Below the pieces are notes generated by a model. It searched no databases. It had not been told where the DNA came from and saw nothing but the letters and a program-made list of their open reading frames with translations. From Bacteroidales bacterium (GTDB taxonomy: Bacteria; Bacteroidota; Bacteroidia; Bacteroidales; UBA932): 64,000 nt of DNA. Shown here piece after piece: positions 47,012-50,678 of this stretch; within the stretch, counting starts at the first letter, position 1, and each line of letters begins with the position of its first letter. The DNA lies in the NCBI GenBank assembly GCA_028707695.1, contig JAQWAL010000003.1, positions 1 to 64,000 on the forward strand, in the 5' to 3' direction. Position numbers and translations under genes: made by a program.

Positions 47012-47044
47012 AAGAACGGTTTTTAATCAAAATCGTTCTTTTTT
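47012..47044. terminator. Terminator between trxB and the PsiE-like gene
   Basis: An inverted repeat with a 12-bp stem (7 bp AAGAACG/CGTTCTT extended by a G-T pair and TTTT/AAAA) closes a five-base TAATC loop and is followed by TTTTTT on the plus strand. The stop codon of the minus-strand PsiE-like gene lies within it. It can serve both converging genes. Confidence 0.75.
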
Positions 47045-47442
47045 ATCAAATAGTATCCACCTGCCAAGGATATGATGAGGGCTGCCAATCCCAAGTTTGT
47101 CACACCATCAGTGTCGTTGAAATCAAAAGCTATGAGTTTGCGGCCTATTGCAATCAAACCAATCAACAATATGTTCAATACTTTTATGGAGTGTTTCTGA
47201 ACATAAACAGAGAAAGTATCTATGAGCTCTATTGCTATCAGGATATTGAAAAACACGGGCAATACCTCTTTTAGCAATGCATTTGATATGAGCAACCTGC
47301 CTTCTGTGTTGCTCCCACTTACTATGGAGACTCCAAACTGGTAGACCAGCTCAATTATTTCAACTACTATGTAGCTGACAAGGATAAAGACAAGGAAAGT
47401 AAATACTACTTTCTCGAACTTTTTTATAGTGTGCATCAACAT
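47023..47442 (-). CDS. PsiE-like small membrane protein
   Basis: This 139-residue protein has four predicted transmembrane helices and resembles the phosphate-starvation-inducible PsiE family (IEIIELVYQFG-like and FFNILIAIELIDTFSVYVQ segments). Function is unknown even in E. coli. It is the last gene of the long minus-strand run, 32 bases after the deformylase gene. Confidence 0.75.
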   Translation of the reverse strand: MLMHTIKKFEKVVFTFLVFILVSYIVVEIIELVYQFGVSIVSGSNTEGRLLISNALLKEVLPVFFNILIAIELIDTFSVYVQKHSIKVLNILLIGLIAIGRKLIAFDFNDTDGVTNLGLAALIISLAGGYYLIKKNDFD

Positions 47443-47474: not shown

Positions 47475-48098
47475 TTATAAATGGTCATAAAAGAGGATTC
47501 CCCTCAAATGGTCAATTTCATGCTGGAAAATCACTGCAGTATAACCCTCTACAAGCTCCCTTTTTATCTCTCCTGAAAGAGTATTGTATTCAATCATGAT
47601 TGCATACGACCTATTCTTGGTAGTGCCCCTGATATCAGGAACTGAAAGGCAACCCTCCCTGCAATCTTGTTTCATTTTTGAATAACCTGAAATCACCGGA
47701 TTCAGGTATGATTCAAAAGGTTCTCCTTCTTTGTCAAATCTTTGAACCAGAATAACATTCCGGGATATTCCAATTTGGGGGGCTGCTATACCAACTCCCA
47801 TTGAGGCAGAGTCAGTTACTGTTGAGTACATCCGTGCTATAAGATGTTCAATAGTTTGTATGTCTTTGCCTGGAATGATATCTCTGCTTTGTTTCCTAAG
47901 AACCAGTGAGTCTTGTAGGTTGTCAGTTTGCAAAACTCTCATTGGTTTGCTTGTATCTGCAGATTCAATGAGTTCTATTTCCAATTTATCCAAACTACCC
48001 GATATATTGTTGCCGGAGAGGTTTGTTAGTTGGGACTTGCAACCGATTATTGCAATAAGCAGTAATAATGATGCTAATATGGTTAGTGATTTTTTCAT
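47475..48098 (-). CDS. Peptide deformylase with a lipoprotein signal peptide
   Basis: This 207-residue protein carries all deformylase motifs: GVGIAAPQIG at 101-110, EGCLS with metal ligand Cys150, and QHEIDHLRG with His193, Glu194 and His197. Unlike the cytosolic housekeeping enzyme it begins with a clear lipoprotein signal (MKKSLTILASLLLLIAIIGC) and a predicted lipidated Cys20. It should therefore face the periplasm or cell surface, where it could act on N-formylated peptides. It starts three bases after the YrdC gene. A second, cytosolic deformylase is expected elsewhere in the genome. Confidence 0.92.
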   Translation of the reverse strand: MKKSLTILASLLLLIAIIGCKSQLTNLSGNNISGSLDKLEIELIESADTSKPMRVLQTDNLQDSLVLRKQSRDIIPGKDIQTIEHLIARMYSTVTDSASMGVGIAAPQIGISRNVILVQRFDKEGEPFESYLNPVISGYSKMKQDCREGCLSVPDIRGTTKNRSYAIMIEYNTLSGEIKRELVEGYTAVIFQHEIDHLRGILFYDHL

Positions 48099-48101
48099 TT
48101 T

Positions 48102-49079
48102 TCAATTATTGTAACGGAATGATGCTTTGGTGAGTTTGTCCATGATTGCCTTGGCAATTCCATCTCCTGGAACTGGCTCTGCAATGATAATATCTACGTT
48201 GGGATCTTCTTCCAGTCGGTGGAGTATATCAAAGAGGTTTACAGCAGCTTCTTTCAGGTCTGCTTTTGTGGATAGGAATTCTGTTTTTGAAAACCCTTCG
48301 TGCACGATTCCTGTAAATGATATGAAAGCTGCCTTTTTGGTGGGTTCGATTGAATCCAATATTTTACGTATGCTTTTAAAATCTTGATTGTCAGAAATGT
48401 AAATAGGCTTTTCGGGGCTATAGTGAGATTTTAGCAATCCTGGTGATGCAAGTGGTGCGCTACTGGTTTTGGTTTTGGAAGCAGGCAGAACTTGTTCCAA
48501 ATCCTTGAATGTTATGAAGCCTTCCCTTAGGATAACAAAACCATCTGGGTTAAGGGAAATTACTGTTGATTCTATCCCTACTTTACAGGGACCTCCATCC
48601 AAGATATAATCAATATCTTTAAGCTGTTTTTTGACATGGTTGGCTGTTGTGGGGCTGATTCTTCCAAATTTGTTTGCACTCGGAGCCGCTATAGGCTTGC
48701 CCGATTTTTCAATAAGGTTGAGTGCTATCTCATTGTCTGGCATTCTTATCCCTACTGTTGGCAACCCGGAAGTAACTACATCTGGTACCAAATCACTTTT
48801 TGGCAGAACGATTGTCAAAGGTCCTGGCCAGAATTTTTTTGCAAGTTCGGTTACCCGGTTGTCCTTGGTTGTTGTGAGACTGTGAATTTGTTCCATGGAT
48901 GCTATATGGACAATCAGCGGATCAAACGATGGCCGTTCTTTTTCTACAAAAATCCTGGCAACAGCTTGAGCATTTGTGGCATCAGCACCCAACCCGTATA
49001 CTGTTTCCGTGGGAAATGCTACCAAACCTCCTTGCTTTATGATTTGTGCGGCCTTATTGATATCTACATCTTTTCTCAT
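48102..49079 (-). CDS. Threonylcarbamoyl-AMP synthase (YrdC/Sua5)
   Basis: This 325-residue protein has an N-terminal YrdC domain ([42 protein letters not shown]) and a C-terminal Sua5 domain linked by [15 protein letters not shown]. It makes threonylcarbamoyl-AMP for the t6A modification of ANN-decoding tRNAs. The start overlaps the pyrophosphatase stop (ATGA). Confidence 0.95.
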
Positions 49080-49642
49080 TTGGAGTTGGAGTTGTCTGTT
49101 TGGTCACGTATAAGTTTATCGTAAAGATCGAAACTATCTTTGAGAATCTCTATAGCAGTCTCTTTGTCAAAGAAGTCCTTGACCACGACTGTCTTGTTTT
49201 CCAATTTTGTGTAATCTTCAAAAAAGTTCATCATCTCTGACCTTGAGTGCGGAGGTAGTTCTGAAATGTCGTTGTAATGGCTGACACTAGGGTCTCCTGC
49301 TGCAACAGCAATCAGTTTGTCATCTGCTTCTCCATTATCCAGCATTCTCATGACTCCGATGATTTTAGCTGGTACAATGCAGAGTGGTACCAATTCAATC
49401 TGGGATAAGATAAGGATGTCCAAAGGGTCTTTGTCGTCGCAATAAGTTTGAGGTATAAAGCCATAATTGGCCGGGTAATATACAGATGAATACAAAACCC
49501 TGTCAAGGATCAGCAGTCCGTTTTTTTTATCCAGTTCGTATTTTGCACGTGACCCTTTTGGGATTTCTATGATCCCGTTGACTATTTCGGGGGTGTTTTC
49601 CCCAGGGTTGACACAGTGCCATGGATTGTAATTAGCGCTCAT
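49076..49642 (-). CDS. ppa: Inorganic pyrophosphatase (family I)
   Basis: From 49642 this is a 188-residue soluble pyrophosphatase. The signature [11 protein letters not shown], with its metal-binding aspartates, and [13 protein letters not shown] are present, as is [12 protein letters not shown] Met eight codons upstream would deepen the overlap with the S41 gene and is less likely. The gene overlaps both neighbours, which indicates tight operon packing. Confidence 0.95.
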
Positions 49643-50678
49643 AACTATTGTCTGTTCTCTGTGCAAAGTTAGTTATTTTATCCAATGCAAGTTCCAATAT
49701 CTCATCCCTTGTGGAGTGAAGCCAATTCATCTGGCAGTAATGGTCTGGTTCAACACCTTCCTCTGCATAATTGACTTTTTTCAAATCATATGATTGTGTT
49801 ATGGAAAACCGGTATGTCCATCCGTTTGGAAGTTGTCCTCCGTTAGGCAAACCTCCTCCTCCGCCAGTTTTGTCTCCAATCAAATAAATATTGTCCATGG
49901 CTTTGGTAGCCAAAGCAAAAAATGTGGAGGCGCTGTATGACCCTCTGTCTATCAACACAATTATAGGCTTGTCAATATATCGTGCCTTTCCTGAAGGAGA
50001 GATGTAAAATGGTTCGAAGGGACCGAAATCTTCTCGTCCCGGGCCATTTCTTGTCCTGTTGTACATTACCAGTGATTTGGTGTTGGTAAAACGGCTCAGC
50101 AGTTTCAATATGTTTACAAAATTTCCTCCTCCATTTTCCCTTAGGTCAATTATTAAACCTATGGTATTCCCGTACCTTTCCAATATGTAGTCAAGGTCGC
50201 TTTCTGAGATATCCCCCAGGAAAGTCTTGTACCTTATGTATCCAATGTTGTGCTTTTTGACAAATCCATGTTGGAAAACTCCTGTGGTGTATTCGGTTTC
50301 GTATATGTAATATTTTTGGACAATCTTATAATCGAAGTTATCCATTTCGTTCTTGCTCTGGTTGTAACGGGAAATATTGAATGGGGACATAAGGTTTGTG
50401 TGGTCGTCCCTTAGTTCGTTTAGCATGCTTCCAAGTATATAGAAAAGTGAGTCTTGACTTATACCTGAATTTAATTTTGGTCGGTAAGCCTGCCTGACGG
50501 AATCCCAATCTACTTTTTTCAAGCTGAAGTAGGCATATTTCCGATCTACTTCGTTCCATAAGTAATCGAAATTGACAAACGGGTCTGTAGAGGCGAGGTC
50601 TTTTCCAAAAAACCATTTTGTGCATGAGCAATTTGCAAGAACAAGTATCAAAAATATTAATTTAAACCAGCTTTTCAT
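49632..50678 (-). CDS. S41-family peptidase, probable lipoprotein
   Basis: This 348-residue protein starts with a hydrophobic signal followed by CSC, giving a plausible lipidated cysteine at residue 17 or 19. The tail-specific-protease core contains [14 protein letters not shown] and the nucleophile segment DRGSYSAS, with a [14 protein letters not shown] loop after it. A separate PDZ domain is not obvious. S41 enzymes cleave C-terminal or unstructured regions of envelope proteins. It lies one base after the beta-barrel-like gene. Confidence 0.88.

Follow-up and report, generated by a model that had tools for sequence, protein, structure and literature searches.

The 64,000-nucleotide window carries, on the minus strand at 47475–48098, an ATG-started gene for a peptide deformylase (PDF) of 207 amino acids, predicted to be made as a lipoprotein precursor. 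Judged from sequence, exported deformylases of this kind form a family that recurs consistently in many genomes, which points to a so far undescribed step of envelope deformylation. In textbooks, deformylation is a reaction of the cytosol, carried out at the ribosome. In the open-access PMC papers searched, no description was found of an exported, periplasmic, secreted, extracellular or lipoprotein deformylase, and nothing relevant on a C90D deformylase or on a deformylase linked to rodA, mreB or Flavobacterium. If the envelope step is real, some bacteria process N-termini beyond the inner membrane as well, which would bear on the fate of the formyl groups whose retention on N-out membrane proteins has been proposed, and on which bacteria release or destroy formyl-peptides; deformylase inhibitors would then meet another target, one that lies outside the cytosol. 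In annotation, the exported genes would carry the plain label 'peptide deformylase'.

The features of the gene and its upstream neighbours are:

48039–48098, minus strand: type II signal peptide (predicted), residues 1–20, with lipobox IIGC and Cys20 (sequence; conserved in homologs)
47943–48038, minus strand: linker and conserved short helix, residues 21–52 (alignment, AlphaFold model)
47478–47942, minus strand: deformylase catalytic domain, residues 53–207 (Pfam, Foldseek, structural alignment)
47775–47798, minus strand: motif 1, GVGIAAPQ, residues 101–108 (sequence and alignment)
47643–47657, minus strand: motif 2, EGCLS, residues 148–152, with metal ligand Cys150 (sequence and alignment)
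47508–47525, minus strand: motif 3, QHEIDH, residues 192–197, with His193, Glu194 and His197 (sequence and alignment)
48102–49079, minus strand: sua5/tsaC threonylcarbamoyl-AMP synthase, directly upstream of the deformylase gene with a 3-base gap
49076–49666, minus strand: inorganic pyrophosphatase, upstream of sua5 and overlapping it by 4 bases

Catalytic domain and structure model

A first-pass annotation of this DNA had reported the catalytic motifs as kept, and Cys150, His193, Glu194 and His197 are indeed all present in the protein; in an alignment of 24 lipoprotein PDFs the catalytic residues are invariant. The protein matches Pfam family PF01327 (1.2e-34, 119.7 bits, cut-off 22.8) and scores 100.7 bits against TIGR00079, the housekeeping equivalog, just under the curated cut-off of 103.95. 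The catalytic domain stops right behind motif 3, the usual C-terminal tail being missing. Ahead of it, the linker after Cys20 is of low confidence in the AlphaFold model, and the conserved short helix is made up of residues 38–45; positions F36, L43 and I44 of this segment are conserved across the exported family. A second cysteine, Cys146 (window 47661–47663), is located four residues ahead of the metal-ligand Cys150 in 30 of 72 family members, where a disulfide or an extra ligand is possible.

The AlphaFold model of the complete protein (pLDDT 87.9, pTM 0.78) has the predicted fold of a PDF. Across residues 50–207 it superposes on solved PDFs with Z of about 21–24 and r.m.s.d. of 1.1–2.4, with a Z of 23.8 for the Acinetobacter class Ib enzyme, and a Z of 22.4 and an r.m.s.d. 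of 1.8 over 146 residues for the E. coli Fe-PDF with formate (1xen). The best Foldseek match is 1lme (TM on target 0.87), and the top rows of the Foldseek and VIA-align searches are all PDFs, with no other fold among them.

The nearest solved bacterial class I PDFs (PF01327, TIGR00079) are those of Acinetobacter baumannii (type Ib), Thermotoga maritima and Leptospira interrogans. The exported PDF has in common with class I enzymes the fold, the His-His-Cys metal site, the catalytic glutamate and motifs 1–3, but is set apart by its export signal, predicted lipid anchor, N-terminal extension, missing tail, a clade-specific QRxDK/PFE signature and the score just below the TIGR00079 cut-off. Among the residues conserved only in exported PDFs are R89, Q119, R120, K123, P127, F128, E129, Y131 and F191, and R163 is conserved in exported and housekeeping PDFs alike. 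A quick maximum-likelihood tree splits 100 exported from 47 housekeeping rows by one branch (SH-aLRT 99); as the label "exported" denotes which of two queries scored higher, irrespective of signal, and is close to a similarity label, this split is partly expected, and the informative part is that the signals follow it. The chloroplast and mitochondrial PDF1A/1B and parasite PDFs likewise have a targeting peptide ahead of the PDF domain. These enzymes serve organelle translation, whereas the exported PDF would sit where ribosomes are absent.

Export signal and translation start

The amino-terminus of the protein is MKKSLTILASLLLLIAIIGC, followed by KSQ after the predicted cleavage site, and this segment has the n-region, h-region, lipobox and cysteine near position 20 of a bacterial lipoprotein. 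The start codon was placed by position: sua5, the gene upstream, ends with its stop at 48102, and the ATG at 48098 follows after 3 bases. The best 80 homologs from the genome collection are from Bacteroidota, Ignavibacteria and one Neomarinimicrobiota MAG, with identities to the query of 46–56% (72 aligned rows). A rule-based scan of N-termini picked up a lipobox-type N-terminus without manual inspection in 72 of 79 homolog rows. When the remaining seven were inspected by eye, six were seen to have a correctly placed cysteine behind a cysteine-containing or otherwise unusual h-region, and one (L076) is an over-extended open reading frame (ORF). A slightly wider rule detects such an N-terminus in 79 of 82 PDF rows. 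The same rule picks out 41 of 592 other ORFs conserved in the neighbourhood and 26 of 4,100 shuffled N-termini, a difference that rules out a chance lipobox. The lipobox signal ending at Cys20 that the first-pass annotation described is thus as stated and, in the survey of homologs that it called for, conserved at the sequence level.

An internal start at Met53, giving a cytosolic deformylase with an incidental signal, is highly improbable. Met53 is close to the start of canonical PDFs and invariant in the 24-sequence alignment; however, it is replaced by Leu or Phe in deeper family members, conservation extends to the signal and to the F36/I44 segment ahead of Met53, and the ATG at 48098 is only 3 bases behind sua5. 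The conserved upstream region and the fact that Met53 is not universal rule out a cytosolic form as the main product, and speak equally against a downstream start giving the only product, which the first-pass annotation had named as fatal to its reading.

Surface lipoproteins of Bacteroidetes have an acidic cluster right after the cysteine (positions +2 to +6) that serves as an export signal (PMC5080379). In our protein the sequence at the cysteine is CKSQLT, without this acidic surface-export signal (LES). Across the family, positions +2 to +6 are acidic in 1 of 72 members and basic in 65, with no acidic pairs. By the rule of that paper (PMC5080379), this suggests that the enzyme faces the periplasm. 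Periplasm-facing outer-membrane lipoproteins of Bacteroidetes (PMC5080379) resemble it in having a lipobox without the acidic signal, but no deformylase is known among them in the literature searched.

Housekeeping deformylase, distribution and gene neighbourhood

The source genome, a MAG of 1.885 Mb that is 88% complete, has a second def gene on contig 48, which codes for 187 amino acids without a signal and is located next to ruvX (named by reading of the sequence). This rules out the gene at 47475–48098 as the only def, and with it the objection, raised in the first-pass annotation, that it might have to be the housekeeping enzyme; the claim of an exported second copy is left intact, the signal being conserved among homologs. 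Within the genus, the exported copy is present in 15 of 25 genomes, 14 of which also have a housekeeping def (the exception, G402, is 88% complete), and the other 10 have the housekeeping def only. The exported gene is thus accessory and, given the second def, the export signal and the patchy occurrence, not a sole or core cytosolic def. The housekeeping Def beside ruvX has the same catalytic motifs as the exported PDF, but is signal-less and present in nearly every genome searched, whereas the accessory exported form lies across the 99%-supported branch. As fmt is found in 24 of 25 genus genomes, formylated starts are made in the genus. In the source MAG fmt is absent, and the PF00551 match there is a 235-residue protein that is PurN-like by its length and missing C-terminal domain. 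With fmt in 24 of the 25 genus genomes, a loss was rejected in favour of a gap in the 88%-complete MAG, which is most likely.

Strong matches (>160 bits) occur in 10 of 395 genomes of the phylum sample, including the source genome, matches above 260 bits in 44 of 299 genomes of family f7, and the exported form with at least 140 bits in 84 of 148 genomes of family f6. The named carriers are mostly marine Flavobacteriaceae and environmental MAGs. In f6, 17 rows with EGCLS, 12 with EGDLS and seven further EGDLS rows begin with apparent type I signals and have no lipobox, so export itself appears to be kept while the anchor changes. In the signal-bearing EGDLS forms (L086–L092, L182–L186, L188–L194) the metal-ligand cysteine is replaced by aspartate, with the two histidines and the glutamate kept. 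In another protein, of 411 amino acids (L085, G359:C12:194544-195092), a signal peptide, DUF1684 (PF07920) and the exported deformylase domain are combined. DUF1684 is absent from all 25 genus genomes; it was rejected as a general partner, and the fusion is local.

The sua5 and deformylase genes are probably co-transcribed, with the inorganic pyrophosphatase gene likely in the same operon; sua5 is also upstream in L003, which is of the same genus as judged by an identical protein. Directly downstream of the deformylase gene is a PsiE-family gene (PF06146, 2.7e-19; 47023–47442, minus strand). In 30 of the 80 loci, located between L012 and L078 and nearly all from Flavobacteriaceae, the exported PDF gene immediately follows mreB-mreC-mreD-pbp2-rodA in the same orientation, with a spacing of −67 to +195 bases when the ORFs are called mechanically. 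About 19 of these have gldC/gldB and nadE homologs further on (the mre, pbp2, rodA, gld and nadE genes were named by reading of the sequences). Only some of the Flavobacteriaceae show the rodA link; the source genome has sua5 upstream instead, and among the 80 loci no conservation of neighbour genes was found outside the rodA group.

Proposed role, alternatives and a further deformylase type

We infer that the exported PDF is active on the periplasmic side. The reading we prefer, with confidence about evenly balanced, is that of a catalytically intact envelope enzyme that deformylates N-formyl-Met ends missed by the cytosolic enzyme. It would leave the cytoplasm through Sec, be cut and lipidated at Cys20, and sit on the membrane by its lipid anchor, facing the periplasm. 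One substrate would be the N-termini of N-out inner-membrane proteins inserted via SRP ahead of deformylation: SRP binding keeps inner-membrane proteins from being deformylated during translation, and for those with N-out topology it has been proposed that a formyl group is retained on the periplasmic side, out of reach of the cytosolic PDF (PMC5454389). The other would be formyl-Met peptides from periplasmic proteolysis or external uptake, on which aminopeptidases could go on once the formyl group is removed.

The envelope reading is favoured by the rodA-linked partners, mreBCD-pbp2-rodA being inner-membrane and envelope growth genes; against it, an iron- and cysteine-containing enzyme would meet oxidation in an aerobic periplasm. 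Its patchy presence within one genus (15 of 25 genomes) means that the exported PDF is not essential for envelope growth. More tentative, and to be doubted more than the role itself, is a dedicated envelope deformylation step in many Bacteroidota, acting on N-out proteins during envelope growth, co-expressed with Rod in part of the Flavobacteriaceae and using His-His-Asp in one branch.

Nutrient scavenging, in which fMet-peptides of other (dead) bacteria would be deformylated in the periplasm for aminopeptidases and the cell's own membrane proteins would be incidental, agrees with the accessory, patchy distribution and with the environmental Bacteroidota among many carriers. We consider it unlikely: conserved peptidase, TonB or peptide-transporter genes were not found nearby, and the partners in 30 loci are mre/rodA growth genes. 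The tandem position behind rodA could also mean that the PDF fold has been reused for another envelope substrate linked to the Rod complex, such as a peptidoglycan- or lipoprotein-related amide, and the clade-specific QR-x-DK-xxx-PFE-x-Y, missing from housekeeping PDFs, the branch with cysteine changed to aspartate and the one fusion to DUF1684 can be read in the same way. However, all classical catalytic residues are kept, including EGCLS in the lipoprotein branch, R163 is kept too, and the rodA link is restricted; this reuse seems less probable still.

An enzyme at the surface or outside the cell that eliminates formyl-peptide signals, and so helps to avoid detection by leukocytes, has very little probability. 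The soluble f6 forms with type I signals are releasable in principle, but residues +2 to +6 are acidic in a single member of 72 and basic in 65 (PMC5080379 for the signal), and the named carriers are for the most part free-living or environmental; both points weaken the surface location and formyl-peptide receptor evasion that the first-pass annotation had put forward. That the protein is a decoy in the periplasm, capturing natural PDF inhibitors (for example actinonin) and so sparing the cytosolic enzyme, is scarcely to be expected: the inhibitor-binding fold is intact and the best structural matches include actinonin complexes, but a decoy that works by stoichiometric binding offers little against small inhibitors, and the context gives no support.

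A further PDF type of about 177–183 amino acids, with roughly 100–118 bits to the exported query, is present in f7 genomes such as G182:C16:897286-897780 (L094). No signal was seen in L094, which is located on the housekeeping side of the tree on a very long branch.
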